DNA of 43,249 bases from a virus. Location: the IMG/VR virus record IMGVR_UViG_3300042939_000283, positions 1 to 43,249 of that record. One strand, 5' to 3'. The position numbers and the translations under genes are program-made. This document shows, in pieces, positions 5,784 to 37,110 of this stretch (positions are counted from its first letter, which is position 1; every line of letters starts with the position of its first letter). The notes below the pieces were generated by a model. The model searched no databases and had not been told where the DNA came from. It worked only from the letters and a program-made list of their open reading frames with translations.

Positions 5784-6659
5784 CTATGAGCGGGCCAAAC
5801 GCTCCGTCGTATCGACGATAAGGCCCTGTGCGCTAGGGTCCAAACGCTTAAAGCTTTCAATGAGACGTGCCGTTGAATCTGTTGACGCCTCAAAACACGA
5901 CGGTAGTTTTACTGATGGCCCGACACGCTGCAGTAGCGTCGCTGTGGCTACATAATGCGACATGACCTTTAAGCCACATCCATGCAGCACTGCTCCGGCG
6001 GACGCGTTGGCGATAGTCCATTGAGTGATGCCTTCCTGACGAAAATACTTTGGAAGCACCACAGTCACTGCCGCGTTTTCACACGCATCAGCGATTTCCT
6101 TTCTGATCGCTCGTTTCGCAAAATCTGAAACTGCTCTAAACCGATACGGCCCACGATGCACTATCCTTCGAAGCCATTTTGGCAACGGAATCACGTGCTG
6201 CTTCCCAGTCTTTGAGGCTATCACTGCGAGTGTTTCCGGCCATTCAGTCAGCCGATATCTAAGCAACACCCTCATTGCATCGGACAATCTGAGACCGGTC
6301 CACATCGTCAACGCAATCCATGATTGCAGCCATTCCTGACAATGTGGCCATATCGCGTCAACGATGTCGTGATTCACTCCGACTGGCATAACCTGCCTTT
6401 GTGCAAGCCTTTTCCCAGCACTGATTGAGCTTCCTACGAAATGTCTATGCAGCGTGAGTATGTCGGCAATCGTCGATTCGATTGTGCGCGGCGATAACGC
6501 TCGCCTCAGCAGCTCTGTCCGAATTTGATTTAGGTGTTCCGGGCTCACGTCACCGATTTGAATGTCACCTATTACCGATGCGGCACGGGTGGCAGAATAT
6601 AACGGTTCTCGACGTCGGATGGATTTTGCAGCCAAATACGCTGCGGCTTCGTTAATCAT
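5784..6659 (-). CDS. int: Tyrosine recombinase (phage integrase)
   Basis: A 291-residue integrase. I chose ATG 6659 because AGGAG lies eight bases upstream; an ATG at 6680 is in frame. The C-terminal catalytic domain shows Arg124 in MWTGLRLSDA, a Lys in IASKTGKQHVIPLP (150 or 153), Arg207 in LPKYFRQEG, and the nucleophile Tyr236 in KVMSHYVATA. The His of the HxxR box appears to be Lys204, and the third-box His/Trp appears to be Cys228 (LHGCG). Family knowledge: such enzymes recombine phage attP with a bacterial attB. The adjacent attP carries a tRNA-Val 3' half, which names the likely target. It is not an integron integrase: I see no IntI-specific insertion between the catalytic boxes. Confidence 0.87.
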   Translation of the reverse strand: MINEAAAYLAAKSIRRREPLYSATRAASVIGDIQIGDVSPEHLNQIRTELLRRALSPRTIESTIADILTLHRHFVGSSISAGKRLAQRQVMPVGVNHDIVDAIWPHCQEWLQSWIALTMWTGLRLSDAMRVLLRYRLTEWPETLAVIASKTGKQHVIPLPKWLRRIVHRGPYRFRAVSDFAKRAIRKEIADACENAAVTVVLPKYFRQEGITQWTIANASAGAVLHGCGLKVMSHYVATATLLQRVGPSVKLPSCFEASTDSTARLIESFKRLDPSAQGLIVDTTERLARS

Positions 6660-6754
6660 TGTGGTTGCTCCTGGTGTCATCCGTGCAACCTTATGTCATT
6701 CCGTGAGTCCGGCTGTTTCTTTCTATAAACGGTAGGGTTTTCGATACTAAGGCG

Positions 6755-10605: not shown

Positions 10606-10817
10606 TTCTGGAGTGCCGCTACAAGGACGCTGCGGGCGATTGGCTGACTGTCCAGCTGCACAGCGATGTTGTTCCGAATTCTCGTGCAACGGTGTTTGTA
10701 CAGGAGTCCGGGAAGCCGCTGATTGTGCTACGGGTTATTCGCCAAGTGTTTGAGTCAGGACGGCCAGTGCCGTGGATTCGGTGCTGCAAGATTAACGATG
10801 AGGACGGGGACGAATGA
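10602..10817 (+). CDS. Unknown protein, 71 aa
   Basis: Its ATG overlaps the previous stop, and its own TGA overlaps the next ATG, so it is coupled on both sides. It is a small beta-rich protein (MILECRYKDAAGDWLTVQ, then SRATVFVQESGKPLIVLRV) with an acidic tail (NDEDGDE). No family recognised. Confidence 0.65.
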   Translation: MILECRYKDAAGDWLTVQLHSDVVPNSRATVFVQESGKPLIVLRVIRQVFESGRPVPWIRCCKINDEDGDE

Positions 10818-11971
10818 GTATAGAAACATGCACATGCAGCATTTCTGACACGGTAAACATGCTGCTTAATGAAATAGAGATGATGGACATGCCTCAGAAG
10901 GTGGCGGCAATCAATAACGTGAAACGCAAACTGCACGCGATATCGCCGTTTGCAAATGAGCCAGTTGATTGTGTTGTGTGGATTCCAGCCGAGAACGTAA
11001 CTGCAAACGAATACAACCCTAATAAGGTTGCACCGCCGGAAATGGAATTGCTGGAAGTATCTATCGTAAATGACGGTTACACACAACCAATCGTCACGTG
11101 GGCCAAAGACGACGCGCACGAAGTAGTTGACGGATTTCACAGGTCGCGAGTTGGTAAGGAATCACACCTCGTCGCTCAGCGTATTCAAGGCTATTTGCCA
11201 GTCGTAGAAATTCGCAAAGAACAGCAGGGCAAGAATGATCGCATTGCGTCAACGATTCGCCACAACAGGGCACGAGGAAAGCATCAGGTAGACGCTATGT
11301 CAGAAATTGTGCTCGAACTAAAGAATCGCAATTGGACAAACAAGCGGATCGCCAAAGAACTCGGAATGGATGAGGATGAAATTTTGCGTCTCTGTCAAAT
11401 CACAGGACTGGAACACTTGTTTACAGACCATGATTTTTCGCGAGCGTGGGAAGCGTCTGACAGTTCTCCAACGGATGATTTCACCGAATTGACAGATGAC
11501 ATCACTGATGAAATGCGAGCAGCCGTCAGAACAGCCAATACCTCTGACCCCAACAGGGTGTTTCACACACACGATAAATGGGAGTGCGTCAAAGCTGGTT
11601 TTTATTCCTCGACGGTTGATGGGAAGACTAAGGAACAGTGCCAGCATGAATATGCGGCTTTCCTGTCGGACACCCGGCAATTTTCCGACGCACTGGTAAA
11701 GGTCTTTGAGCAATGGCCGCACTCCTGCGAACACTATCTCACAAACGTAGCCATGAACCGGATTGCATGGCTGGGTCAGGCTGCGATGTGCGTTGCTCGT
11801 GGCATTCCCAGTCAGTTTTGCTCTGGTTTTAACTTGCTCACGATCGAACAGCAGGAAGCTGCAAATCAGACTGCGTTAGAAGCGTTAAACAGTTGGCTGC
11901 AAGCTCGAGGAATGGAAACGCTCGACATGCACTCTGCCCTATCCTATGGCAGACAGGTGGAGATTTACTGA
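10814..11971 (+). CDS. ParB/Srx-fold protein, IbrB-like
   Basis: A 385-residue protein with a ParB-like nucleotide/DNA-binding domain at about residues 50-140: VVWIPAENVTANEYNPNKV, EVSIVNDGYTQPIVTW, then VVDGFHRSRVG, which corresponds to the ParB GERR-type box. A predicted HTH follows (WTNKRIAKELGMDEDEILRL). The C-terminal half is unassigned. The adjacent gene is a PAPS-reductase-family protein; the ordered ParB-like/PAPS-reductase-like pair is that of IbrB-IbrA, known in Escherichia as co-regulators of eib genes. Biochemical activity of this pair is not settled. The TGA overlaps the next ATG by one base. Confidence 0.8.
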   Translation: MSIETCTCSISDTVNMLLNEIEMMDMPQKVAAINNVKRKLHAISPFANEPVDCVVWIPAENVTANEYNPNKVAPPEMELLEVSIVNDGYTQPIVTWAKDDAHEVVDGFHRSRVGKESHLVAQRIQGYLPVVEIRKEQQGKNDRIASTIRHNRARGKHQVDAMSEIVLELKNRNWTNKRIAKELGMDEDEILRLCQITGLEHLFTDHDFSRAWEASDSSPTDDFTELTDDITDEMRAAVRTANTSDPNRVFHTHDKWECVKAGFYSSTVDGKTKEQCQHEYAAFLSDTRQFSDALVKVFEQWPHSCEHYLTNVAMNRIAWLGQAAMCVARGIPSQFCSGFNLLTIEQQEAANQTALEALNSWLQARGMETLDMHSALSYGRQVEIY

Positions 11972-13188
11972 TGACAAAAAAGGTGCAACTACTGACCTCC
12001 GTGTTAGACGAAGCTCGCGAGCGAATCGCGAAGTCCTTTGACATGTTCGAACGGCTGTACATTTCCTTTTCCGGTGGTAAGGACAGTTCTGTTATGTTTC
12101 ATCTAGTAATGGATGAAGCAAAACTACGGAATCGCAAGGTCGGCGTTTTGGTAATAGACCTCGAAGCTCAGTATTCCGATACGATCAAACATATCGAGGA
12201 AATGGTAACCCAGTACGCAGAACACATTGAACTTCACTGGGTGTGCGCTGAAATGTTGCTGAGGAACGCCGTTTCAAACTACCAGCCACGATGGATTTGC
12301 TGGGATGAAGACAAGAAGGATATCTGGGTTCGTGAAAAACCTGCACTGGCTGCAGATCTGAGCCAGTACGATTTCTATGTTCCAAAGATGGAATTCGAAG
12401 AATTCATGGTCATTTTTGGTGAGTGGTACGCACAAGGAAGAAAAACTGGTGCATTCATCGGAATTAGGTCTGACGAGTCATTGCATCGATACCGCGCGAT
12501 CGTTTCACGGAAAGATGGGTTGATGGCCAATGGCCACAAGTGGACAACAAAAGTTGCTCGCTGCCTGTACAACATCTACCCGATATACGACTGGCGTGTT
12601 GAAGATATTTGGGTGTACCACGGAAAGAACCCAGACAAACATCACAATCGTATTTACGACCAAATGACAAAGGCTGGCGTACCTCTCAGCCAGCAACGGT
12701 TGTGTCAGCCATATGGCGATGATCAGCGTAAAGGGTTGTGGCTTTATCACATTCTTGAGCCTCAGACATGGTACAAACTTGTCGTCCGCGTGAACGGTGT
12801 TAATAGCGGAGCGTTGTACATTCAAGAGACCGGAAACATGACCGGGTACAACAAGATCTGCAAACCCGATGGGCACACATGGAAATCATTCTGCAATCTG
12901 CTTTTGCGGACCATGCCTGCAAAAACTCGCGCACATTACGTGGCTCGCTTTCAAAAGTTTATCGCTGGATGGCATCATCGAGGATACACGATTATTCCCG
13001 ATGAAGCCCCGCATGAGCTTGAGGTTAAATGCTGGGCACCATCATGGAGACGAATGTGCAAGGTTCTTTTGCGAAATGATTACTGGTGCAAGGGACTGGG
13101 ACAATCACAGCCATTGTCAGACGCATATCAGACATTTAAGGAATTGCGGGCCAAACGCAAACTAGAAAACCGTTTATCACATGACTGA
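11971..13188 (+). CDS. PAPS-reductase-family protein, IbrA-like (DUF3440 type)
   Basis: A 405-residue protein. The PP-loop is clear: YISFSGGKDSSVMFHLVMDE (SGGKDS at 34-39), the ATP-pyrophosphatase motif of PAPS reductases and related adenylyl-transferring enzymes. Further blocks include RSDESLHRYRAI, KVARCLYNIYPIYDWRVEDI and CKPDGHTWKSFC. IbrA-like proteins share this architecture and are always longer than true PAPS reductases. There is no sulfur-assimilation neighbour, so a metabolic role is unlikely. It is coupled to the ParB-like gene, with which it probably forms one functional unit. ATG 11971 has GGTGGAG upstream. Confidence 0.85.
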   Translation: MTKKVQLLTSVLDEARERIAKSFDMFERLYISFSGGKDSSVMFHLVMDEAKLRNRKVGVLVIDLEAQYSDTIKHIEEMVTQYAEHIELHWVCAEMLLRNAVSNYQPRWICWDEDKKDIWVREKPALAADLSQYDFYVPKMEFEEFMVIFGEWYAQGRKTGAFIGIRSDESLHRYRAIVSRKDGLMANGHKWTTKVARCLYNIYPIYDWRVEDIWVYHGKNPDKHHNRIYDQMTKAGVPLSQQRLCQPYGDDQRKGLWLYHILEPQTWYKLVVRVNGVNSGALYIQETGNMTGYNKICKPDGHTWKSFCNLLLRTMPAKTRAHYVARFQKFIAGWHHRGYTIIPDEAPHELEVKCWAPSWRRMCKVLLRNDYWCKGLGQSQPLSDAYQTFKELRAKRKLENRLSHD

Positions 13189-15435: not shown

Positions 15436-15496
15436 GGAACACACAAATGACAACACCAACCCCCGCCCAACAACTTCTCGGAAACGCTTTCCAATT

Positions 15497-15560
15497 ATTT
15501 TCGAAAATCTTTTCAATCTGTTTGATTAGCCGTTGACGATTCAGACGAAGTAAGTAATAC
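15497..15560 (+). promoter_or_regulatory. Promoter P1 with TTTTCGAAAA operator
   Basis: A 12-bp palindrome ATTTTCGAAAAT (15497-15508) lies upstream of a sigma70-type promoter: -35 TTGACG (15533-15538), 16-base spacer, -10 TAATAC (15555-15560). The same layout recurs at 19861-19923, which argues that both are functional and controlled alike. It drives the genes at 15607 and 15759. The 170-base gap between 15435 and 15607 contains only this element and a doubtful short ORF. Confidence 0.75.
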
Positions 15561-15606
15561 TTCCCTCAGTCGAACGCAACGCAAACAACCAGCAAGGAAA
15601 AGAACA

Positions 15607-15762
15607 ATGACGACGACCAACGAAGTGCGAAACATGATCAAGCCATGGCTGACCGGAAACGACGAAAAAGACGCGAAGATGCTCAAGAATATGTTTCGAG
15701 GTGTTGGAATGAGCATCAGCGAATGGCGACAGGTTGTCAAAGAAACGAAAGCGGCAGCATGA
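15607..15762 (+). CDS. Small protein, 51 aa, P1 module gene 1
   Basis: ATG 15607 follows AAGGAAA; the product begins MTTTNEVRNMIKPWL and ends VVKETKAAA. No family recognised. Its TGA overlaps the next ATG (ATGA), exactly as in the paralogous module at 19971-20165, although the two first genes do not resemble each other. Confidence 0.65.
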   Translation: MTTTNEVRNMIKPWLTGNDEKDAKMLKNMFRGVGMSISEWRQVVKETKAAA

Positions 15763-15956
15763 GAGGTGGAGCCCGGAAGGGGGCCGGGCGAAAGCCCGGC
15801 CTCGGAGAAACGAAGGTTGACAAGAATATCGCCCTGACGCCCACGCTGTGGGCTTTTCTTATGTCGGGCGGGAATTCGGCTGGCCATGAAATCGAAACTC
15901 GCCTGCGAAAGTCTGCGGCGTTTAAATCGTGGCTGAAGAATCAGGTTTCAGAGTAG
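15759..15956 (+). CDS. GARKGAGRK-motif protein, P1 module gene 2
   Basis: A 65-residue protein with an N-terminal basic Gly-rich motif (RGGARKGAGRKPG) followed by a short domain (NIALTPTLWAFLMSGG, ETRLRKSAAFKSWLK). The paralogue at 20162-20371 has the same motif and the same spacing. Such N-termini are common in small phage and plasmid DNA-binding proteins. Its stop is immediately followed by the R'' box of attC1. Confidence 0.7.
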   Translation: MRGGARKGAGRKPGLGETKVDKNIALTPTLWAFLMSGGNSAGHEIETRLRKSAAFKSWLKNQVSE

Positions 15957-16048
15957 GCAGAACGACGGCATTCACCGGGTGCCGCCGTGAACGATTTCCA
16001 TTTCTAAACCCGCGTTGTCAGCGGCTCCCGTGCAACGCTTTGTTATCT
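15957..16048 (+). repeat. attC: attC1 (family A)
   Basis: R'' GCAGAAC, R' GTTATCT. Left part ACGGCATTCACCGGG pairs with CCCGTGCAACGCT, leaving unpaired bases. Nearly identical to attC8. Its R'' has no matching cassette start upstream, so the first unit of the array has lost its left boundary. Confidence 0.88.
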
Positions 16049-16059
16049 GGAGTTCTGAC

Positions 16060-16296
16060 GTGAGTGATGTATACAAGGTCACGATTGAAATCATCAACGA
16101 TGATGGAAGTACAGCAAAATGCGAAGTGGCAGGAAACCGCAACGAACTTGACGGAACTTTCGTGTTGGGGTCACTGGTCGGTCAAGCCGTTAATGGTGTA
16201 TGGAATCAGGTTGAGTTTTGTGAGGGAGAGAATTTTGCAGAAGGGCTAAATGACTTCCTGCCTGAAGAGTTCAAGGTAGTAGTTCCTTCCAGATAA
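16060..16296 (+). CDS. Cassette A protein, 78 aa
   Basis: The GTG 16060 follows CTGGAG by seven bases. The product begins VSDVYKVTIEIINDDGSTAK and is acidic and beta-rich; no family recognised. The stop TAA lies inside the R'' box (AGATAAC) of attC2, which matches GTTATCT at the cassette's left end. Confidence 0.7.
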   Translation: MSDVYKVTIEIINDDGSTAKCEVAGNRNELDGTFVLGSLVGQAVNGVWNQVEFCEGENFAEGLNDFLPEEFKVVVPSR

Positions 16297-16379
16297 CGAC
16301 GGCATTCACCGGGTTGCGGCCGGTGACTCTATTCTTCAAGAACCGTGAACCGCAACTCCGGTGCAATGCTTTGTTATTT
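16291..16379 (+). repeat. attC: attC2 (family A)
   Basis: R'' AGATAAC, R' GTTATTT. GCATT-CACCGG-GTTGCGG pairs with CCGCAACTCCGGTGCAATGC, leaving an extra T and C unpaired on the right strand, the hallmark of attC extrahelical bases. Confidence 0.92.
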
Positions 16380-16393
16380 GGAGATTGCATCAG

Positions 16394-16597
16394 ATGGATG
16401 CGAAGACTGGGCCAAAAACGGTTGAGGAACTCTATCGGGAACATGTGGGAAGAGTCGTACGCGGTCAAAAAGAAGAGTGGTCCGCCTGGCAATTCGCAAA
16501 AGCGGTTGGCGTAATTCTTGATGGTCCACAGGGATGCATTCAGTCGTTTGATTGCAATGCAGGAGATCACTCAGACGCCTGCCCTTCTTCCAAATAA
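16394..16597 (+). CDS. Cassette B protein, 67 aa
   Basis: ATG 16394 (MDAKTGPKTVEELYREHVGR), with GGAG upstream; an ATG at 16361 lies inside attC2 and is less likely. A small, mostly helical protein (WSAWQFAKAVGVILDG). The TAA is in R'' of attC3 (AAATAAC), matching GTTATTT at the left. No family recognised. Confidence 0.62.
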   Translation: MDAKTGPKTVEELYREHVGRVVRGQKEEWSAWQFAKAVGVILDGPQGCIQSFDCNAGDHSDACPSSK

Positions 16598-16682
16598 CGA
16601 CCAAGATCACAGGGTGCGAAAGGAAGACTATGAGCACACACAACGGCGAGAATGAGCACTCCTGTGCATCGCCTTGTTCGCC
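16592..16682 (+). repeat. attC: attC3 (family B, with start codon in loop)
   Basis: R'' AAATAAC, R' GTTCGCC. The arm ending GATCACAGGGTGC pairs with GCACTCCTGTGCATC. The loop holds AAGGAAG and an ATG (16630) that opens the next cassette's gene. Confidence 0.85.
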
Positions 16683-16905
16683 TGCTGTTCCTGACGCTGT
16701 GGGTGAATGGGAGTTGACCCGACACGATGGTGAGGTCATAACCTTTGAGACATACGAATTACCAACAGGCCAACTGGTTGCGTGGTGCGAAGAGTGCGGG
16801 CTTTCCGGCGGAATAGATCATTCTTTATTCTGGGATGACGATGAATGGGTCGGTCATGTTCCGGTGTGCCTTATGTCTGACTGGGGCGATTTTCGACGAG
16901 TTTAA
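16630..16905 (+). CDS. Cassette C protein, 91 aa, start inside attC3
   Basis: ATG 16630 lies in the attC3 loop after AAGGAAG, and the frame runs through L' and R' (SCASPCSPAVP) into the cassette. The remainder (VGEWELTRHDGEVITFETYE, WCEECGLSGGIDHSLFWDDD) has a CxxC pair and many acidic and aromatic residues. No family recognised. An internal GTG in AVGEWEL could be an alternative start. Confidence 0.65.
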   Translation: MSTHNGENEHSCASPCSPAVPDAVGEWELTRHDGEVITFETYELPTGQLVAWCEECGLSGGIDHSLFWDDDEWVGHVPVCLMSDWGDFRRV

Positions 16906-16912
16906 TGAGTCA

Positions 16913-17004
16913 GGCGAACGCCCGGCGATAACCGGGCCTGAGAGGTAAAACGATGAGTACAGAAAACGCAGAGCCGAAGGCTCCGGTTGATCGCCTTGTT
17001 ATCT
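16913..17004 (+). repeat. attC: attC4 (family B, with start codon in loop)
   Basis: R'' GGCGAAC (pairs with GTTCGCC at the left end of cassette C), R' GTTATCT. Arms CGCCCGGCGATAACCGGG and CTCCGGTTGATCGCC. The loop holds GAGAGG and ATG 16953. Confidence 0.92.
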
Positions 17005-17210
17005 GCAAAGAGTGTGATCTGCTGAATGGTCTGATGTTCGATCTGGAAAATCGTTGCTGTGATTTGCGGTGTCGGAACGTTCCGACTGGTGGTGATGATT
17101 ACGACGTCGAATGGTTCGTGGTTGAGCATTACATGCAGGAACCACGAGAGCGCGAAATCGGCAGTGGGCGAAATGTGATGATGGCTCTCATGGCTGCGTT
17201 TTGCAGATAA
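16953..17210 (+). CDS. Cassette D protein, 85 aa, start inside attC4
   Basis: ATG 16953 in the attC4 loop after GAGAGG. The first 16 residues (MSTENAEPKAPVDRLV) are encoded by the attC site, and almost the same string opens cassette K. The body is cysteine-rich (ICKECDLLNGLMF, CCDLRCRN), suggesting a zinc site. TAA in R'' AGATAAC of attC5. Confidence 0.68.
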   Translation: MSTENAEPKAPVDRLVICKECDLLNGLMFDLENRCCDLRCRNVPTGGDDYDVEWFVVEHYMQEPREREIGSGRNVMMALMAAFCR

Positions 17211-17294
17211 CGACAGCATTCACCGGGTTGCGGCCGGTGACTTTCTTTCTTCGAACACCGTGAACCGCAACTCCGGTGGAATGCTTTGTTATGC
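17205..17294 (+). repeat. attC: attC5 (family A)
   Basis: R'' AGATAAC (GCAGATAAC pairs with GTTATCTGC at the left of cassette D), R' GTTATGC. Arms as in attC2. Confidence 0.92.
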
Positions 17295-17311
17295 TGTTTT
17301 AAGGAGTGTCA

Positions 17312-17539
17312 ATGTCAAGGGTGCAGTACAAATACTGGATGGTTCATTCGCGTGAGGGTGGACCGGCTGCAAAAACGTACGACGACTTCGGCACCGCGTT
17401 ACAGGAGGCTCAACGTCTTGCGTCACAGCAACCGGGCAGGCGATTCGGCGTCATGGAACTTGTCGAATGCTGGGTAGTAGAGCAGCCAGAACCTCATTCA
17501 GTGCGAGTTGAGCACGCACCTCAAGCACAATCAGCATAA
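17312..17539 (+). CDS. Cassette E protein, 75 aa
   Basis: ATG 17312 with AAGGAG just upstream (GTG 17306 is in frame). The product begins MSRVQYKYWMVHSREGGPAA and contains a helix (YDDFGTALQEAQRLASQQ). No family recognised. The TAA is within R'' GCATAAC of attC6. Confidence 0.7.
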   Translation: MSRVQYKYWMVHSREGGPAAKTYDDFGTALQEAQRLASQQPGRRFGVMELVECWVVEQPEPHSVRVEHAPQAQSA

Positions 17540-17624
17540 CGACGGCATTCACCGGGTTGCGGCCGGTGGACTTCATTTTTTTAAAAACCGTGAACCGCAA
17601 CTCCGGTGGAATGCTTTGTTGTGC
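17534..17624 (+). repeat. attC: attC6 (family A)
   Basis: R'' GCATAAC (CAGCATAAC pairs with GTTATGCTG), R' GTTGTGC. Arms as in attC2. Confidence 0.92.
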
Positions 17625-17633
17625 TGCTTTGTA

Positions 17634-17661
17634 TTGACACAGAAGAGCAGCGGTGTGATAC
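17634..17661 (+). promoter_or_regulatory. Cassette-borne sigma70-type promoter
   Basis: TTGACA (17634-17639), a 16-base spacer, TGATAC (17656-17661); TG at 17654-17655 also gives an extended -10. It lies at the left end of cassette F, immediately after attC6, so this cassette brings its own promoter. Confidence 0.75.
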
Positions 17662-17668
17662 TCGTGGA

Positions 17669-17766
17669 ATAAGTCATCTGGCTAGAGATGATTTCAAGTT
17701 GTTCAAGGGCCGCAAGGCCTGAGAAGGAACCCTCCACAGGTCTAGCCGCTTGTGTGAGGGTTTTTT
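17669..17766 (+). ncRNA. Candidate structured small RNA / leader in cassette F
   Basis: Between the promoter and the coding gene lie three hairpins: TCATCT/AGATGA (17674-17691), GGCC-GCAA-GGCC with a GNRA tetraloop (17708-17719), and a terminator stem ACCCTC/GAGGGT with CACA/TGTG, followed by six T (17729-17766). A transcript of about 100 bases ending at the terminator is expected. It could be a free small RNA, or a leader that attenuates the gene at 17782. Not matched to a known RNA family from memory. Confidence 0.6.
17729..17766 (+). terminator. Intrinsic terminator/attenuator upstream of the DGQHR gene
   Basis: ACCCTCCACA (17729-17738) pairs with TGTGTGAGGGT (17751-17761; one bulged T), followed by a T tract. 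It lies between the cassette F promoter and its gene. Confidence 0.8.
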
Positions 17767-17781
17767 CGTAGGAACTTTCTC

Positions 17782-18582
17782 ATGTTAAAGACTATAGCGT
17801 TTTCGGAATTGAATTTAAAAAAGCGGCAGATTGTGAACGTAAATCTGAAGCCTGCTGAAGCCGCAGCATTACTGCAGCACAATACGGACAACCGTCGAAT
17901 CCGCCGCTCACTGGTGAAGTATTTGATTACTCAAATTTCCCAACAGGAATGGCGAGACGACCACCCACAGCCAATCGTGTTTTCGGATTCCCGTTTGATC
18001 GATGGCCAGCACAGATTGACAGCAATTTCTCAATCCGGCTGGGAGGATGGTTGCGTTGTGCGAATCGAAACTATGGCGAGCGACAAAGTGAGAGAATATC
18101 TCGATACTGGCGCTCCGCGTTCGCTGGCAGACCGCGTTTCTGTTGTCGAAAACCGGTCATATAATGAATGGATTATGAGGATCGTAAACGCCGCCACTGA
18201 TGTGAAGTCTGGTGGCGGATCGACAGCAAAGCGACCTACCCCTGAAGATGCACGCGAATACTACGACGTTCACAAAACGGAAATGGATGCCGTGTACAGA
18301 TCGTGGAAGAAAATTCCAGGACTCGGTATTTTTTCTGTCGCCCTTGCCGCAGTGGAATACGCAGCACTGGACACCGAAAAGGCTATCGCATTCTATGACG
18401 ATTTTTTCACGCCTGCGGGGCACATAAATCAAGCGCAGATTTTAAGAGACGCACTGCTGCGCAATGCCGATGGCCATCGCACCGGACGTAAACGCAAAGA
18501 ACTGTATGAGAAATCGGTTTCGTGCATGAAGGCTCACATGGAAGATCGCGAGATTAAGCGAGCTGTGTGTGGCACGTGGTAA
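17782..18582 (+). CDS. Cassette F protein: DGQHR-type ParB-like protein, 266 aa
   Basis: ATG 17782 with AGGA eight bases upstream. The key block is VFSDSRLIDGQHRLTAI, the DGQHR motif shared by ParB-like and DndB-like proteins, after an N-terminal region (NVNLKPAEAAALLQHNTDNR) and before VREYLDTGAPRSLADRVSVV. The C-terminal half is helical. Relatives occur in phages, and DGQHR proteins often act in DNA-modification control. It is the largest cassette protein and the only one with a strongly recognisable domain. Expression probably depends on readthrough of the preceding terminator. Confidence 0.8.
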   Translation: MLKTIAFSELNLKKRQIVNVNLKPAEAAALLQHNTDNRRIRRSLVKYLITQISQQEWRDDHPQPIVFSDSRLIDGQHRLTAISQSGWEDGCVVRIETMASDKVREYLDTGAPRSLADRVSVVENRSYNEWIMRIVNAATDVKSGGGSTAKRPTPEDAREYYDVHKTEMDAVYRSWKKIPGLGIFSVALAAVEYAALDTEKAIAFYDDFFTPAGHINQAQILRDALLRNADGHRTGRKRKELYEKSVSCMKAHMEDREIKRAVCGTW

Positions 18583-18589
18583 GGGTGGC

Positions 18590-18651
18590 GAATGGCTGGC
18601 AGGACGCCAGCCACGTTCGGAGCAGACAGGCAGGCAGGATGCCTTGTTCTG
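18590..18651 (+). repeat. Hairpins after the DGQHR gene
   Basis: TGGCTGGC-AGGAC-GCCAGCCA is a perfect 8-bp stem, followed by a second imperfect stem (GACAGGCAGG with CCTTGTTCTGTC). There is no T-tract. They may stabilise the transcript end. The GCCTTGTTCTG part recalls an attC right arm, but no matching R'' is present. Confidence 0.45.
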
Positions 18652-18654
18652 TCA

Positions 18655-18744
18655 GCACAACGACGGCATTCACCGGGTGCCGCAGCCCGGTGTGGATTTT
18701 TGAAAACGGATGGTGCGGCACTCCGGTGCAATGCTTAGTTATGC
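18655..18744 (+). repeat. attC: attC7 (family A)
   Basis: R'' GCACAAC (CAGCACAAC pairs with GTTGTGCTG at the left of cassette F), R' GTTATGC. Arms GGCATTCACCGGGTGCCGCA and TGCGGCACTCCGGTGCAATG. Confidence 0.92.
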
Positions 18745-18763
18745 CGTTTTTTTTGGAGTGGTG

Positions 18764-19000
18764 ATGAAGATTCAACTAGAGTTTAGCGGAACCAGTAGTA
18801 ATGCGATGGAATGCGTTGAGGAACTGCGATTGGCAGTGAAGGCCACAGGATGGCAACCATCGTGGATAATGCTTGCGATGATTTTGCGTGAACTTGAAGT
18901 GCTTGACGATGAGGACTGGCCGTCGGATGTTGCTGACGAACTACTGGCAATGATTATTGAAAAATTCGCAGATATGGAACGCAACAGTTTGTCCGCATAA
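18764..19000 (+). CDS. Cassette G protein, 78 aa
   Basis: ATG 18764 with GGAG upstream. The product begins MKIQLEFSGTSSNAMECVEE and ends with an acidic helical part (DDEDWPSDVADELLAMIIEK). No family recognised. TAA in R'' GCATAAC of attC8. Confidence 0.7.
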   Translation: MKIQLEFSGTSSNAMECVEELRLAVKATGWQPSWIMLAMILRELEVLDDEDWPSDVADELLAMIIEKFADMERNSLSA

Positions 19001-19084
19001 CGACGGCGTTCACGTGGCCGCCGTGAACGATTTCAATTTCTAAACCCGCGTTGTCGGCGGCTCCCGTGCAACGCTTTGTTAGCA
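18995..19084 (+). repeat. attC: attC8 (family A)
   Basis: R'' GCATAAC (pairs with GTTATGC), R' GTTAGCA. The central part is almost the same as in attC1. Confidence 0.9.
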
Positions 19085-19093
19085 GGTGTTTTT

Positions 19094-19378
19094 ATGTTGC
19101 TGAGACGCGCGATTGATGTGGTAGAGTTTTCAGAGGAACAGGTCGGGACCGCGATTGCAAGGGCCAGCGATGAACAGCAACGATACGTTCTAATCGCAAT
19201 GGCGAACGCTGTCGACCGAATGTCGATTGAGGGTGGGTCGTGGCCGTTTCAGTGCCGGGCTATTGTTGATGGTTCCTGTGGTCCGGGAAGCGGGCTGTCA
19301 GCGAATGACCGTAGCCGTATCGCGTCAATGCTGGATTGTTTACTGGATCATCTGCGGGAACCTGTGTCATCCTGCTAA
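19094..19378 (+). CDS. Cassette H protein, 94 aa
   Basis: ATG 19094 after GCAGGTG; a TTG inside attC8 is a weaker alternative. The product begins MLLRRAIDVVEFSEEQVGTA; helical, with a Gly/Ser/Cys loop (VDGSCGPGSG). No family recognised. TAA in R'' TGCTAAC of attC9. Confidence 0.68.
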   Translation: MLLRRAIDVVEFSEEQVGTAIARASDEQQRYVLIAMANAVDRMSIEGGSWPFQCRAIVDGSCGPGSGLSANDRSRIASMLDCLLDHLREPVSSC

Positions 19379-19508
19379 CGCCCGGCGATAACCGGGCTGA
19401 TTGAATTGAAAGGTGAGCAATGCAACGAGACCACAAAGGACAACCGATGACATACTGGGGTGGAAACCCGGACGGTCAATCAGCTCCGTGTTCATCGCCT
19501 TGTTCACC
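19373..19508 (+). repeat. attC: attC9 (family B, long, with start codon in loop)
   Basis: R'' TGCTAAC (CCTGCTAAC pairs with GTTAGCAGG), R' GTTCACC. The stem is longer than in the others: GCTGATTGA pairs with TCAATCAGC. The loop holds GAAAGGTGAGC and ATG 19420. Confidence 0.9.
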
Positions 19509-19752
19509 GCCGCTTTTCGTCACGCTGGAAGACGTCATACAATCACGGCTGCAATGGCTGAAAGAGTATCAGGGGCCAGTGGTTGCATGGGTGCCAGTTG
19601 GCGATTACCTGTCCGTTTTTTGGGAGGACGCGGCGTATCACGCTGTGCCCGTGAGTAATGATCTGACGTTGTATATGGCTATCGATGACAATCGCGTTGT
19701 TGGATGCAAGGTTCATTGCCTGACGCAGGTGATGTGTAAGTCAGCGCGGTGA
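19420..19752 (+). CDS. Cassette I protein, 110 aa, start inside attC9
   Basis: ATG 19420 in the attC9 loop; the frame runs through the right arm (SAPCSSPCSPP), as in cassette C. The body (TLEDVIQSRLQWLKEYQGPV, VAWVPVGDYLSVFWEDAAY) is a mixed alpha/beta domain with no recognised family. TGA in R'' GGTGAAC of attC10. Confidence 0.66.
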   Translation: MQRDHKGQPMTYWGGNPDGQSAPCSSPCSPPLFVTLEDVIQSRLQWLKEYQGPVVAWVPVGDYLSVFWEDAAYHAVPVSNDLTLYMAIDDNRVVGCKVHCLTQVMCKSAR

Positions 19753-19837
19753 ACGACGGCGTTAACCGGACCGCGAGCGGTTGACGCTGATTCTGAAAAC
19801 GCCTGATTCGCGGTTCCGGTTCAACGCTTTGTTATCG
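19748..19837 (+). repeat. attC: attC10 (family A, divergent)
   Basis: R'' GGTGAAC (GCGGTGAAC pairs with GTTCACCGC), R' GTTATCG. Arms GGCGTTAACCGGACCGCG and CGCGGTTCCGGTTCAACG. Confidence 0.92.
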
Positions 19838-19860
19838 TGCGTTTGTTGGTCTCGGAAATA

Positions 19861-19923
19861 TTTTCGAAAACTTTTCCTGATTGCTTGATTGTGTATTGCA
19901 CATTCATCCGATGATGGTAATAT
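19861..19923 (+). promoter_or_regulatory. Promoter P2 with TTTTCGAAAA operator (paralogue of P1)
   Basis: Palindrome TTTTCGAAAA (19861-19870), -35 TTGCAC (19896-19901), a 16-base spacer starting ATTCA, -10 TAATAT (19918-19923). It matches P1 in order, spacing and in the CTCGGAAA sequence before the palindrome. It drives the three genes of cassette J. Confidence 0.75.
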
Positions 19924-19970
19924 TCCTTCATCAGACGTGCGACGCAAAACGACCAACAAGGAAACGAACA

Positions 19971-20165
19971 ATGACAGAAGTAGCAATGAAATCAGACATC
20001 GTTAAAGAAACCGAAAAAGCTATCTGCATCGACTACGCACGCGAACGACAGATTTGGTTGCCAAAGAGTTGTATTGAAATTGTGGACGGTATTGTGTGGG
20101 CTAAAAAGTGGATTGCAAAGCAAAACGGAATCGGATGCTTTAACCGAAGGACAGTAACAGTATGA
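19971..20165 (+). CDS. Cassette J gene 1, 64 aa
   Basis: ATG 19971 after AAGGAAACG, the same leader as at 15607. The product begins MTEVAMKSDIVKETEKAICI and contains ERQIWLPKSCIEIVDGIVWA, a beta-rich domain. No family recognised. ATGA overlap to the next gene. Confidence 0.68.
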   Translation: MTEVAMKSDIVKETEKAICIDYARERQIWLPKSCIEIVDGIVWAKKWIAKQNGIGCFNRRTVTV

Positions 20166-20371
20166 GTGGCGGACAACGTGAAGGGGCCGGGAGACCGGCC
20201 CCATTGGGGCGCAAGGAGACATGCACGGTTCGCCTGACTCCGGATGTTGTAGAGTTTTGCCGTCAGCATAAAAACGGGTTCCCAGTGCTGGAAGAAAAGC
20301 TACGCAAGTCAAAAGAGTTTCGGGAATGGTTGGCCGCACGCAGTCGCAGTAAGGAATCCGCATGCGAATAG
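20162..20371 (+). CDS. Cassette J gene 2, GQREGAGRP-motif protein
   Basis: A 69-residue protein with SGGQREGAGRPAPLG at the N-terminus, then KETCTVRLTPDVVEFCRQ and LRKSKEFREWLA. It is a paralogue of the P1-module protein at 15759-15956 (same motif, same following segment, same ATGA coupling). Probably a small DNA-binding protein; it may act on the shared TTTTCGAAAA sites, which is inference. Confidence 0.72.
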   Translation: MSGGQREGAGRPAPLGRKETCTVRLTPDVVEFCRQHKNGFPVLEEKLRKSKEFREWLAARSRSKESACE

Positions 20372-20622
20372 TTCAAGCAAACCTTTGTTTAAGGTTTCAC
20401 CCTCGATGCGGATGGACACGTGAGGCAGTCAGGCAGTTGCTGCGTGACGATAAGCGTCTAGAGCGGGTGATGCCGCGATATTTCGACGCGAGAGACAAAG
20501 CCGGACAGGGCAGCAACGAACTCGCAGACGGGTTGCCGCACGATGACTGCGATTACTTCGCAGTCTACGGAGCGTGCGAACCGTTTTCCGCTGCTGCGTT
20601 GGCAGAGCATGAGATTGTGTGA
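20362..20622 (+). CDS. Cassette J gene 3, 86 aa
   Basis: ATG 20362 overlaps the end of gene 2 by 10 bases. The product begins MRIVQANLCLRFHPRCGWTR and contains EAVRQLLRDDKRLERVMPRY, a helical charged region. No family recognised. The cassette's R'' (CGATAAC) follows 7 bases after the stop. Confidence 0.62.
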   Translation: MRIVQANLCLRFHPRCGWTREAVRQLLRDDKRLERVMPRYFDARDKAGQGSNELADGLPHDDCDYFAVYGACEPFSAAALAEHEIV

Positions 20623-20629
20623 TCCGTCA

Positions 20630-20718
20630 CGATAACGCCCGGCGATAACCGGGCGGGGAGTAAAACATGGAAAACCAAAATCAGGCTGATACCGCTCCGG
20701 TTGATCGCCTTGTTATGC
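20630..20718 (+). repeat. attC: attC11 (family B, with start codon in loop)
   Basis: R'' CGATAAC (CACGATAAC pairs with GTTATCGTG at the left of cassette J, 800 bases away), R' GTTATGC. The loop holds GGGGAG and ATG 20667. Confidence 0.93.
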
Positions 20719-21026
20719 CGTGGGATCGGGACGTAAACACACTGACGAAGTTTTGTGAACAGGCTGCTATCGTGCACCTTTTAGACACCGGAACTCACAC
20801 GGCTGCGACTCTAAAGCAGGCGCTGTGGTGGATTCAGTTTCTTGATCAGTTCAGGAAAACGGTTGAGAACGTGCATCAGGCTGTGTCGCAACTGTCACCA
20901 GAACAGCAAGATGTTATTACTGCTGCCTGCCGAAACACTGCGGGTATCTGTTTCTGTGGCAATCATGGATCCTCAGACAGTGGTGTCGATTTCGGTGATG
21001 GTGGTGAGTCAGTGTCATCGGCATAA
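20667..21026 (+). CDS. Cassette K protein, 119 aa, start inside attC11
   Basis: ATG 20667 in the attC11 loop with GGGGAG upstream. MENQNQADTAPVDRLV is encoded by the attC site and resembles the start of cassette D. The body is helical (QFLDQFRKTVENVHQAVSQL). No family recognised. TAA in R'' GCATAAC of attC12. Confidence 0.68.
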   Translation: MENQNQADTAPVDRLVMPWDRDVNTLTKFCEQAAIVHLLDTGTHTAATLKQALWWIQFLDQFRKTVENVHQAVSQLSPEQQDVITAACRNTAGICFCGNHGSSDSGVDFGDGGESVSSA

Positions 21027-21107
21027 CGACCGGCGATAACCGGGCGGACGGTTGATTTTCTACGCGATGACCGGCTGAAGCCGCTCCGGTTGATCGCCTT
21101 GTTATGC
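21021..21107 (+). repeat. attC: attC12 (family B)
   Basis: R'' GCATAAC (CGGCATAAC pairs with GTTATGCCG), R' GTTATGC. An ATG in its loop is followed by a stop after three codons, so it does not supply a useful start. Confidence 0.92.
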
Positions 21108-21127
21108 GGCTTTTGTAAGGGTGACAT

Positions 21128-21448
21128 ATGGATATTCAGCGATTGAGAAATCTGACGACTGGCAAGTTGCATACAAAGATGGGGGACATTTACGAGGATC
21201 TCGGCTTCATTGTCGGCGACGATGGGTTGATGACACACATGCTTCCGCGAGTGATGCGAGCGATTGAGTCATGGTTGCGTGAGCAGGTGACAGACCCTCG
21301 ATTCTGGGACGGTCAGTACGACACGACTCACACAGGGGACTATCCGTTGCGAGCGATGACGCCAGAGGAAAACAAGGCCGCACTGGAGAGATACGCGGCG
21401 ATGCCGAATCCACTGGCGGGCAAGGAAGTGATTGCGGTTCAGGTTTAG
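21128..21448 (+). CDS. Cassette L protein, 106 aa
   Basis: ATG 21128 after AAGGGTG. The product begins MDIQRLRNLTTGKLHTKMGD and contains LPRVMRAIESWLREQVTDPR. No family recognised. CCGCATAAC (21450-21458) just after the stop pairs with GTTATGCGG at the left end, but no attC follows. Confidence 0.7.
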   Translation: MDIQRLRNLTTGKLHTKMGDIYEDLGFIVGDDGLMTHMLPRVMRAIESWLREQVTDPRFWDGQYDTTHTGDYPLRAMTPEENKAALERYAAMPNPLAGKEVIAVQV

Positions 21449-21449
21449 T

Positions 21450-21458
21450 CCGCATAAC
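21450..21458 (+). repeat. Orphan R'' box ending the array
   Basis: CCGCATAAC is the exact complement of the left end of cassette L, but the next bases (TTTGAATTATCAG) do not form an attC. The last site has been lost just after R''. Confidence 0.75.
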
Positions 21459-21493
21459 TTTGAATTATCAGTCCCAGTGATATCCCCATCCGA

Positions 21494-21516
21494 CCCCGCA
21501 AAAACGCGGGGTTTTT
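21494..21516 (+). terminator. Intrinsic terminator after the array
   Basis: CCCCGC-AAAAAC-GCGGGG followed by TTTTT. It ends plus-strand transcription of the early operon and array. From here to 21671 I see no gene, only a Gly/Ala-poor GC-rich stretch with no clear function. Confidence 0.85.
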
Positions 21517-21671
21517 ATTCGGCTCGACCAAATATTACTCGCAGAGTCAGGTACATGATAACGACGTGCGCGTAATACGGGCGGAATATCACTCGCGCAG
21601 GATAAACACAGCGAGCCGCTGCGATTGCTCGCGGCGGCTCTCCCGGTGCTGTGGTGTCGGCCTGCATGCCT

Positions 21672-22250
21672 CTACGACAGTCGGTGCTTTCTTGCAGTAG
21701 ATACGGCTCTTTCAATCGTCCAGCCATACTTGATTCGCTGAGCAATCGTAGTCCTAGAGACTCCGCATGCTTTAGCCCATTGGGTAATATTGCGCGATAC
21801 TCCGTTGATCTGTATAACGGTGCCAGATTTTACCCGTGAAGGTGCTCGCGGAGTCTTTCTTTGAACACGTCGCGAAAGATCATTACGTGATGTCCATCCA
21901 CTATCCAAACGATTTGTCAGCGTTCTACGACTAACGCCAAATTCCTCTGCCCATTCTGATAGATTTTTCGTAACTCCTTCAATCGTAACAGAGCGGCAAT
22001 TGCTTCGATTTCTATTCTGTTGAGTCTTCGTTTCCCATCGACAATTTTCTTTGCAGTAACCTTTATTGTTATCGATTCGTCCGAGAGACATGCCTTCTGG
22101 CCTCGGTCCCATATCACGCACAAAACACTCAAAAGAGAGCCATTCGCTACACACTTTCACACCTTTTGCCCCATATCTCTCATACGCCTGATCGGCCTTG
22201 CTTAGGCATCTTTTTTTCATGCTTATCCATGTGCTGTATTCTCGCCTCAC
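21672..22250 (-). CDS. Homing-endonuclease-like protein with two HTH repeats
   Basis: A 192-residue protein. The N-terminal domain (about residues 1-85) has the order YERYGAKGVKVCSEWLSFE, DMGPRPEGMSLGRIDNNKGY, CRWETKTQQNRNR, which is the conserved block of a large group of free-standing phage endonuclease-like proteins of the His-Me finger type. Two related DNA-binding repeats follow: GVTKNLSEWAEEFGVSRRTL and GVSRNITQWAKACGVSRTTI, each continuing with GWT. This is typical of mobile endonucleases that spread between phages. It lies convergent to the cassette array. Confidence 0.75.
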   Translation of the reverse strand: MRREYSTWISMKKRCLSKADQAYERYGAKGVKVCSEWLSFECFVRDMGPRPEGMSLGRIDNNKGYCKENCRWETKTQQNRNRSNCRSVTIEGVTKNLSEWAEEFGVSRRTLTNRLDSGWTSRNDLSRRVQRKTPRAPSRVKSGTVIQINGVSRNITQWAKACGVSRTTIAQRIKYGWTIERAVSTARKHRLS

Positions 22251-31983: not shown

Positions 31984-34218
31984 TCATGCACCGTTGTGCT
32001 TGTACAGACCACGGTAATCAATCGCAGCAACACCGAACGTCTGACGAACCTTGTTCTTGTAGACGTCCTTGTCGAAGTCCCATTCAGATTCAAGAACTGG
32101 AGACTGTTCGCCTTCCAAAAAGGTAATTTCCACGGTGTCGACCTGGCTGTTGTTCGCTGCCAGGTACCATGCCGTTGAACTGTTGGCGTCGAGCAGTGGC
32201 TCAACGATAACTTTCAGCGGTCGGTCTCCGTTTGGTCCGTAGATGTTCTTCGTGTTGCTGTTACCAGCGGCAGAACCACCAACAGACGGATCCGCAATAG
32301 ATCCCAGCAATTGCAGTGCAGTTGCGCTGATAGCCGCTGGCACAATCAGAAATGCAGGCTGAATGTTCAGAATGACGTCTGAACGCAGCCCCTTCTTCGT
32401 CATCATGCTGATGTACGCAGTGTTCAGAGTGGAAACACTCGGAGCACCGGCACCAGTCGCATAGTTAGCGTGACCGCCTGTAGTGGTTTGTGCTGTCGCA
32501 TTGAACAGCAACCCGGCATCGGCCATTGCTGCATTGGCAGTCAATACACCATATACCGCCTGATTCTGCAGACGTCGGCAGGCGGCTCCCTGCATTGCAG
32601 GGATACGGCTGATCGCGTCCAGATCATCATTCACAACGGTTTCCCATGTGATCGTGAACATGTTGCCGTATTTGTTGACTTTGTAGGATTCCTTTGCATC
32701 GCTCATCGCTGCGTCGGGATATTCCTTGCCTTCCGGAACCATTTCCGGTGTGCCCATTTCACTGAAGCGAATTCGATTCAGTGTCTTGAAGTCGCTGGTA
32801 GTTCCCGCATCACGTGCCCACATCGACCAGGTATAGGGAGCTTCCTCGTATCCAGCCAGAAGGGTCTTGTTTGCCGCATCCAGCAGCAGGTTCGCGAAAC
32901 TGCCGGTCGTGTGGTACGCATCACGCTGGATTCGGAACCGGTTCATCGACCCCGGGTGACCCATTGCCACAAGTGCGATGTCTTTCGGAGCCATCCGGCG
33001 AACATCGCAACCCATCTTTTCAGCGTACATTTCAGCCATGCGGCTGAGCTTCATGTTTACGAAGTCCTGATGTCCTTCAGCCGGTTTTGTTACTGCGGCA
33101 CTGCGAATGCCGCCCTGTCGGAACGTTCGCATGATCAGGCCATCTCTGGCCGCTGCAAATAACTTGTCGTCAGCAGATTCGGTTAATGCCACTCTGTCGG
33201 AACTCTGTCCAATCGGTGTTGTTGCCATTTTTTGTAGGATCCTTGCTCGTGCTGTGTTGAGGTCAATGCCTTCATCGCAGAGCGAGTCGGCAAACGATCG
33301 TTCGATTTTGTGCTGAGAACACAACGCCTGAATTTCTTTGCGCCGGGTCTGGTCTGCTTTCGCGTAAGCTTGAATGGCTCGTGCGATGGACTTTTCCACA
33401 GTCTTTGGATCCTCTTCAGTTGCAGCAACTGGTGCGGCTTCGCTCGCTGGTGCTGCTGCTGAATCGGCTGCCATCACCTTCTTTGCGGGATCTTCCGTCA
33501 TGGAGTTTTCCACCATGTCTTCTGCCTCTGGCTCGGTGTCTGGCTTCATCTTGCCGACAACCCAGGAGAGAATCTGATTCGGATCGACCATGCCTTCAGG
33601 AAGTCCCATTGCCGTAAGCTGGCTCAACAGTGCCTCGTCCATTCTCTCAACCTTTCTTTCGAGGTCTGTATACGACCTGCGTACTGTGGAAAGTTCGTCC
33701 GCACCAGTGGCACAGATCGAAGCGTTATGCGGCTGCCATCGCGTGTGGATAACTGCCGGACCATCGATGACAGCCCCGCGACTTGTCGTGAACGACTTGC
33801 CGTGAGGAATGAACAGTGATTCAAGAGGCAGAGCGGTGATTGAAAAGTCAGTGATGTGCCCTTCATTCATTCGCTGGCAGATCAACTGAGCTTCCGGATC
33901 ACTCGCAAAACTGGGAGTTCCGTGTAACTCGCCATTGACTACCTGCAAACTGCGGACGCTTCCAAAAATGTTCCGCACCGTCGAATCATCGTGAGAATCG
34001 ACAATCGGAATCTGAGCTTGATTCGTGCGGAGAACAACGCCTTCCATCAGCAGTACTTCGCTGATTACATAGCCACGCTCTTCGTCGTAACGCCGTACCG
34101 GGGTCTCTGTGGCGATCACCACATCAGATACACCGTTTCCGTACCCGACCGAGCGCAGAACAACGCTTGTGCGTTTCGCTTTCGGTATCGTCGGAAGTTT
34201 TCCCGGCTTACGTGGCAT
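31984..34218 (-). CDS. Prohead protease-major capsid fusion, 744 aa
   Basis: The N-terminal about 180 residues are an HK97-type prohead protease: His76 in PIVDSHDDSTVRNIFGSV and Ser126 in GHITDFSITALPLESL. A Lys/Glu/Ala-rich scaffold-like linker follows (about 180-350, e.g. EEDPKTVEKSIARAIQAYAK). From about 355 the HK97-fold capsid begins (LTESADDKLFAAARDGLIMR, SMWARDAGTTSDFKTLNRI, TITWETVVNDDLDAISRIPA). In most HK97-type phages the protease is a separate gene; here all three parts are one chain, presumably self-processed. Confidence 0.85.
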   Translation of the reverse strand: MPRKPGKLPTIPKAKRTSVVLRSVGYGNGVSDVVIATETPVRRYDEERGYVISEVLLMEGVVLRTNQAQIPIVDSHDDSTVRNIFGSVRSLQVVNGELHGTPSFASDPEAQLICQRMNEGHITDFSITALPLESLFIPHGKSFTTSRGAVIDGPAVIHTRWQPHNASICATGADELSTVRRSYTDLERKVERMDEALLSQLTAMGLPEGMVDPNQILSWVVGKMKPDTEPEAEDMVENSMTEDPAKKVMAADSAAAPASEAAPVAATEEDPKTVEKSIARAIQAYAKADQTRRKEIQALCSQHKIERSFADSLCDEGIDLNTARARILQKMATTPIGQSSDRVALTESADDKLFAAARDGLIMRTFRQGGIRSAAVTKPAEGHQDFVNMKLSRMAEMYAEKMGCDVRRMAPKDIALVAMGHPGSMNRFRIQRDAYHTTGSFANLLLDAANKTLLAGYEEAPYTWSMWARDAGTTSDFKTLNRIRFSEMGTPEMVPEGKEYPDAAMSDAKESYKVNKYGNMFTITWETVVNDDLDAISRIPAMQGAACRRLQNQAVYGVLTANAAMADAGLLFNATAQTTTGGHANYATGAGAPSVSTLNTAYISMMTKKGLRSDVILNIQPAFLIVPAAISATALQLLGSIADPSVGGSAAGNSNTKNIYGPNGDRPLKVIVEPLLDANSSTAWYLAANNSQVDTVEITFLEGEQSPVLESEWDFDKDVYKNKVRQTFGVAAIDYRGLYKHNGA

Positions 34219-36825: not shown

Positions 36826-37110
36826 TCACTCTACCTCTTTCCACGTCGCCCCGCAAAACCCACACTTGCAATACCGTGTGCGGCCCTGCGTACTGTATAC
36901 CCGAGAACATGACCGCCCGTCAATCTTGGCGTCCAGATCACGCAACGCCTGACACGTGGAGCATGGCTGCGGGACAAACTCCGTCACCCGCGCCTTCGGT
37001 GCCTTAACGTTTTCGCAGGCTGTTGACCCATCCACCGGTTCGGCGTTTTGGGACTCCGTGCCGCTGGCCTGCAGGTTTCCCTGACGGTGGTTTCTGTTGT
37101 GCTTGCTCAT
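36826..37110 (-). CDS. Zinc-ribbon protein overlapping terL, 94 aa
   Basis: ATG 37110 (MSKHNRNHRQGNL) gives a basic N-terminus then CSTCQALRDLDAKI and YCKCGFCGATWKEV, two Cys pairs of a zinc ribbon. It overlaps the 3' end of terL by 107 bases in another frame. A GTG-type start nearer the zinc ribbon is possible. Its position by the terminase suggests a packaging or regulatory role. Confidence 0.6.
   Translation of the reverse strand: MSKHNRNHRQGNLQASGTESQNAEPVDGSTACENVKAPKARVTEFVPQPCSTCQALRDLDAKIDGRSCSRVYSTQGRTRYCKCGFCGATWKEVE

Follow-up and report, generated by a model that had tools for sequence, protein, structure and literature searches.

We analysed IMGVR_UViG_3300042939_000283, an entire virus record of 43,249 bases from IMG/VR (hereafter the window), and found that positions 15957-21458 (plus strand) are a genuine integron cassette array, with 12 attC sites and 12 cassettes. 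Integrons are usually regarded as bacterial gene-capture devices that phages acquire by chance. This array is very probably the cassette part of a phage integron, which a lineage of planctomycete phages holds at a fixed place, with the genes inverted in their cassettes and the integron integrase (IntI) provided in trans. The sites, the cassette boundaries, the conservation of attI, the inversion of the genes, the shared cassettes with exact ends, and the intI genes in two relatives were all read from sequence.

A preliminary description of the window had reported twelve attC-type sites in the genome of a tailed phage, and it had proposed testing them with an attC covariance model and by folding the bottom strands. 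We built a covariance model (R1, with 21 pairs) from 11 of the sites and left out S9. R1 recovered all 12 sites, at 15957-21107, including the held-out S9 (E = 7e-10, 42.6 bits). Elsewhere in the window, R1 scored nothing beyond two reverse-strand echoes, and across 782 kb from 80 phage loci, its matches were confined to the arrays of three contigs. A scan of the window against Rfam gave no match. The sites have R and L boxes, imperfect inverted repeats, and extrahelical bases, and covariation in the stem is strong: 94.6% of cells are paired, 10 pairs have changed on both sides, and none of 500 shuffles matched the covariation score. On the minus strand, most sites fold better than shuffled sequences (z down to -6.7) and several form attC hairpins; S1, S3, and those sites whose left half contains a local hairpin fold less well. 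With at least two attC sites and no intI, the array fits the definition of a CALIN (cluster of attC sites lacking integron integrases) of IntegronFinder and Qi et al. The sites, with strands given in gene sense, are:

15957-16048, plus (true attC polarity minus): attC S1, at the distal end of the array; R1 80.5 bits, E 1.2e-20
16291-16379, plus: attC S2, part of cassette 2; R1 91.4 bits, minus-strand DNA fold z -6.0
16592-16682, plus: attC S3, contains the ribosome-binding site and ATG (16630) of gene 3; R1 69.5 bits
16913-17004, plus: attC S4, contains the ribosome-binding site and ATG (16953) of gene 4; R1 79.2 bits
17205-17294, plus: attC S5, common to relative G006 along with gene 5; R1 92.5 bits
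17534-17624, plus: attC S6; R1 93.8 bits
18655-18744, plus: attC S7; R1 86.7 bits
18995-19084, plus: attC S8; R1 91 bits
19373-19508, plus: attC S9, with a long loop, contains the ATG (19420) of gene 9; R1 42.6 bits
19748-19837, plus: attC S10; R1 85.2 bits
20630-20718, plus: attC S11, contains the ribosome-binding site and ATG (20667) of gene 11; R1 70.2 bits
21021-21107, plus: attC S12; R1 70 bits

The two ends of each cassette in the window are complementary over 7-12 bases (12/12), so that a circular cassette would re-form one attC. The preliminary description had noticed this, and the four pairs it quoted are correct. Among 66 cassettes from phage arrays (leaving out the near-duplicate contig G008), 62 have ends that pair over at least 7 bases. 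When we shuffled the partners 2000 times, the mean was 7 and the maximum was 16. Within a single site, by contrast, the two boxes seldom pair over at least 7 bases (7 of 68). The cassettes are:

16042-16297, plus: body of cassette 1; ends pair over 10 bp
16373-16598, plus: body of cassette 2; ends pair over 10 bp
16676-16919, plus: body of cassette 3 (gene 16630-16905); ends pair over 9 bp
16998-17211, plus: body of cassette 4 (gene 16953-17210); ends pair over 12 bp
17288-17540, plus: body of cassette 5; 98.8% identity to a cassette of G006
17618-18661, plus: cassette 6 (gene 17782-18582, phrog_5931, unknown function); 9-bp pairing
18738-19001, plus: body of cassette 7; 7-bp pairing
19078-19379, plus: body of cassette 8; 9-bp pairing
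19502-19754, plus: body of cassette 9 (gene 19420-19752); 9-bp pairing
19831-20636, plus: cassette 10 (three small genes, 19971-20165, 20162-20371, and 20362-20622); 9-bp pairing
20712-21027, plus: body of cassette 11 (gene 20667-21026); 9-bp pairing
21101-21458, plus: cassette 12, which adjoins attI (gene 21128-21448, DUF7736, PF24875 58 bits); 9-bp pairing
15480-15956, plus: a thirteenth cassette, truncated and without its own attC (two small genes, one starting at 15607 and one at 15759-15956)

G005 and G007 have intact cassettes of the truncated type, in which the first gene is a different one.

The preliminary description had the polarity of the sites backwards: the crossover box is the one that it called R'', and each gene belongs with the attC on its left. 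Because of the extrahelical bases, the position of attI, and two cassettes that are shared at 99-100% identity together with their left attC, we conclude that the mobile unit is attC-then-gene and that the genes point toward attI. A model-free stem scan of the array-bearing phages placed single-base bulges in the gene-sense right half of every site, and none in the left half. Within each array, the scan found sites of one polarity only, and the phage genes run opposite to it. For comparison, in the attC of aadA1 from R100, it is the half beside the gene's stop that contains the two single-base bulges (GTT[C]AAGCCG[A]CGCCGC). The minus strand of the phage sites reads GCATT[G]CACCGG[A]GTTGCGG, with the same 6-base bulge spacing as aadA1. 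Integrases work best with this spacing (the T-N6-G rule; PMC3053210). The cassettes of the phage arrays do not follow the canonical order, in which a gene is followed by its attC. Relative to the strand of the model, gene orientations were 53:5 in phages versus 3:20 in arrays from bacterial metagenome-assembled genomes (MAGs; P = 1.6e-11, Fisher exact test). For example, genes in the L117, L118, and L120 arrays end at their own attC.

With the corrected polarity, the start codon and the gene travel together. Of 68 attC sites, 22 (17 with ATG) contain both a ribosome-binding site and a start codon. The reading frame continues through the right arm and into the cassette, so that N-termini like ...APVDRLV... 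or ...SCASPCSP... result. In G002, the attC-encoded N-terminus MKAENGMTATPVEPIVS is common to two different methyltransferase cassettes. We had considered that genes 3, 4, 9, and 11 span two cassettes and start in the "preceding" attC, but this was rejected, as the polarity is reversed and each start lies in the gene's own attC.

The right end of the array has two further features:

21450-21470, minus: attI-like site; the minus strand reads GATAATTCAAAG^TTATGCGG, with AACTTTGAATTAT in 10 contigs
21492-21520, plus: hairpin resembling an intrinsic terminator, just past attI (8 pairs, 6 of them GC, and a T tail)

The junction AAC/TTTGAATTATC is conserved in 10 contigs from 9 distinct phages, window included, and AACTTTGAATTATC directly follows the last cassette in ten contigs. 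Although the phages differ in their last cassette, the end of each such cassette is complementary to its own left box. The preliminary description had taken 21450-21458 for the end of the last cassette; this box is not half an attC but the end of the cassette joined to attI-like sequence. We also rejected a decayed attC at the right end, since the same AAC/TTTGAATTATC is found in nine other contigs. The minus strand of the junction, TTCAAAG^TT, resembles the core of a known attI (attI1). The same hairpin sequence follows attI in G010 as well. We did not find a Pc promoter that would drive the cassettes from attI: the genes point toward attI, and the terminator-like hairpin lies beyond it.

The same contig encodes the structural and packaging proteins of a tailed phage, which bears out the preliminary description of a cassette array in such a genome:

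31984-34218, minus: phage capsid/protease protein
34208-36037, minus: phage portal protein
37004-39238, minus: terminase large subunit

When the late half of the genome was used to search annotated phages for near matches, none was found. We identified relatives by searching with the capsid and terminase, by searching IMG/VR with two attC patterns, and by scanning whole records. Arrays were present in G001-G010 and G023; G025 has one site, where its contig ends; and G044 and G016 were added to these. R1 found no attC in G016, whose array was recognised by reading the sequence, so the absence of an R1 match in other relatives does not mean that they have no array. If near-identical contigs are counted once (G001/G008, G003/G004, and G007/G009), then about 12 distinct phages, including the window, have attC arrays or cassettes. 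Comparison of whole contigs placed the array at the same location in most relatives, beside the right flank (21446-21691 or a related sequence) and adjoining the late genes. All of these contigs are metagenomic and have no defined ends, and they might be pieces of bacterial chromosomes or chimeric assemblies, in which case the array would not be phage-borne. We consider this extremely improbable: portal, capsid, and terminase share a contig with the array, at the same relative position, in contigs from many separate metagenomes, and the intI of G023 overlaps the last gene of the late region by 4 bases.

Some cassettes are shared between relatives. A 216-base cassette and its left attC are 100% identical in G005 and G010. 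The match begins with the AAC of that attC and runs up to the AAC that precedes attI in G005 and an unrelated attC in G010. A pair of cassettes from G006 and G010 is 99% identical, with 99% identity for the left attC and 69% for the right attC; the median for unrelated attC pairs is 64%. The window's cassette 5 and its counterpart in G006 show 98.8% identity (left attC 84%, right 71%). The shared cassettes fix the mobile unit as the left attC plus the gene. In these three cases, two of which were read base by base, sequence comparison shows the cassettes to have moved as units that end at the core site, and the matches point to recent exchange among phages with far more divergent backbones. 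The preliminary description had suggested that the phage would carry cassettes between hosts; exchange between phages is supported, and transfer between hosts is not.

Two relatives, G016 and G023, have complete integrons (intI, attI, and cassettes) with the same inversion. Their IntI proteins exceed the cutoff of TIGR02249 (320 and 310 bits versus 265). In these two relatives of the window, the capsid is 76% identical (G016) and the terminase is 42% identical. In both, intI lies just beyond the attI end of the array, and the last cassette pairs over 8-9 bases. The gene order in G023 (44 kb) is late genes, intI, array, early genes. Upstream of the integron of G016, we noticed by eye a sequence that resembles a transfer RNA (ggtgctgtagtctaattggcaagac..., L161, about 11480-11550, minus strand). 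The phage IntIs cluster with one planctomycete IntI (98/97 support), in a tree with a rough and unsettled bootstrap, a long branch for G023, and some unreliable outgroup rows. Among 118 genomes of the host order, 20 have an IntI above the cutoff.

Planctomycetes are likely to be the hosts, because 7 of the 9 genome contigs that match the phage attC pattern are planctomycete MAGs and because G278, a single-contig genome from the same planctomycete order, has two near-identical prophages with full-length capsid homologs (52% identity). The prophages (G278:C1, about 539800-573800 and 4866800-4898600) are about 99% identical in most blocks and are in opposite orientation. In the stretches of the prophages that we searched, there was no R1 site and no homolog of IntI or of the window's own recombinase, P0001 (described below). 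The wider phage family includes temperate members.

The array might instead be an ordinary CALIN, that is, a piece of a planctomycete chromosomal integron that was acquired by a phage and is now inert. The window has no IntI, planctomycete MAGs hold long arrays of the same attC family, and phages that picked up pieces of host integrons are known in Vibrio (PMC9892861). But the host arrays show the opposite gene orientation, the phages keep their attI-like site in 10 contigs whose cassettes differ, otherwise diverged phages have identical cassettes with exact ends, and two relatives have complete integrons with the same inverted layout. We consider an inert CALIN to be very unlikely.

We found no intI in the window, and no match to Phage_integrase. 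It does encode another recombinase:

5784-6680, minus: P0001, a divergent tyrosine recombinase (298 amino acids), identified from motif, profile (phrog_1, 31.5 bits), AlphaFold model, and Foldseek

A search for close proteins found no relatives of P0001, although an alignment search did find homologs. The catalytic residues R/K/R/H/Y are invariant in 14 homologs. The AlphaFold2 model (predicted local distance difference test score of 87) matches lambda Int, Xer, and IntI4 in Foldseek. Could P0001 be the dedicated integrase of the arrays and a novel type of attC recombinase? The P0001 gene immediately precedes the array in G007, G009, and G010, the protein's sole match in NCBIfam is the integron-integrase model (TIGR02249), albeit weakly (23 bits versus the cutoff of 265), and it retains the catalytic residues and the predicted fold of tyrosine recombinases. 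On the other hand, it lacks the additional domain (an insertion) that is typical of IntI, it is distant from the array in the window, G001, and G044, its homologs also occur in phages without recognisable attC, and Foldseek places lambda Int and Xer equally near. An ordinary lysogeny integrase would explain P0001 equally well, so we doubt that it serves the arrays; it may simply be the phage's own integrase. Promoter-like sites beside the recombinase in G010 and G007 are suggestive only. P0001 and the two related prophages in a planctomycete chromosome give only indirect support to the preliminary description of a temperate phage.

The array occupies a fixed location where the rightward early genes end (their 3' end) and extends leftward from the attI-like site at 21458 (in minus-strand polarity) as 12 units of attC plus gene. 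The direction and source of its transcription, the identity of the integrase that acts on it, and its activity in this phage are inferred. Because the window has no IntI, the integrase would be provided in trans, by the planctomycete host or by a co-infecting phage, and it would recombine the folded minus strand at the G^TT of the gene-sense left box. As each gene lies downstream of the attC in its own cassette, the genes would be read toward attI: transcription would enter from the early genes and stop at the terminator past attI. A new cassette inserted at attI would add its gene to the end of the operon. Each attC forms part of its gene's leader, and about a quarter of the sites provide the ribosome-binding site, the start codon, and the first codons. 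A more speculative extension, which we think is improbable, is that the lineage has its own type of integron, with attC-first cassettes that enter at the far (3') end of an early operon, ahead of its terminator, with attC as ribosome-binding site and N-terminal coding sequence, with exchange among phages, and with P0001 as a second enzyme that is independent of IntI.

Several points weigh against a phage-held integron. The window has no IntI, and our case for recombination comes from sequence comparison. Cassette sharing was seen in three close pairs. The attI was called from its position and conservation, in phages with no resident integrase, and the attI sequences of G016 and G023 differ from that of the 10 contigs. 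Promoters in the window are no more common than expected by chance (5 found, 6.2 expected). The window may be short of some bases, as IMG/VR classes no ends. Gene orientation was taken from simple calls of open reading frames, and five phage cassettes have a longer antisense frame. Finally, the few MAG arrays that we sampled were located with a model built from phage sites, and one of them (L122) is of mixed orientation.

Most of the cassette genes match nothing, as the preliminary description had stated; the exceptions in the window are phrog_5931 and DUF7736. The identifiable cargo in relatives includes three N6/N4 methylases, one C5 methylase, and a weak PAPS-reductase match, in a cassette of G003. 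By eye, the phrog_5931 protein (17782-18582, plus) is ParB-like. Cassette 10 (19840-20371) and the truncated cassette (15480-15964) have similar leaders, and the N-termini of their second genes are similar (MRGGARKGAGR.. and MSGGQREGAGR..). Outside the array, the early region of the window encodes a ParB-like protein (10814-11971, plus; phrog_2159, 238 bits) and a PAPS-reductase-like protein with DUF3440 (11893-13188, plus), and another phage gene (3861-4688, minus) has a Papain-family cysteine protease domain (36 bits).

This phage lineage seems to use the integron as its own platform for accessory genes and to swap cassettes between diverged phages. The methyltransferase cassettes of the relatives plausibly act against restriction. 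The order of gene and attC within a cassette, which is often assumed to be fixed, is not. The inverted layout also makes expression testable, because the attC becomes a leader and start codon.

The preliminary description had called a phage-borne array rare or undescribed. Qi et al. (2023) reported 3 complete integrons and 17 CALINs among 10,705 phages (PMC9892861), so the kind is already known. We found nothing like the array in the window in the literature that we searched, nor a lineage-wide phage integron or an array with all genes inverted, although our search was thin on subscription papers and preprints. The lineage-wide inverted architecture appears to be new. Like the window and its relatives, the phage CALINs of Qi et al. 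(such as Tetrasphaera phage TJE1) have attC sites and cassettes in tailed phages, mostly without IntI, and some cassettes encode DNA methyltransferases (PMC9892861). In their assay, IntI1 recombined phage attC sites (PMC9892861). TJE1 has 3 attC sites, and the one that we could scan has canonical polarity, whereas the lineage of the window has longer arrays, a fixed attI-like site, inverted genes, and two relatives with their own IntI.

The class 1 integron of R100 (intI1-attI1-aadA1) resembles these phages in its two single-base bulges that are six bases apart, and its order of intI, attI, and attC is that of G016 and G023. In the window, the order of gene and attC within the cassette is reversed, and there is no IntI. 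Treponema integrons also have an unusual direction, in that intI and the cassette genes run the same way (PMC3607928). But in Treponema, intI is transcribed toward attI (PMC3607928), while the intI genes of G016 and G023 begin at attI and point away from it, and it is the cassette genes that are turned around. The chromosomal integrons of planctomycetes share the attC family (by both the phage attC pattern and the model) and include an IntI that groups with those of the phages (98/97). With one attC family in host and phage, the traffic of cassettes between planctomycetes and their viruses can be tested directly. The chromosomal integrons differ in having the canonical gene orientation, which was called for 20 of the 23 genes in bacterial MAG arrays, most of them from planctomycetes.

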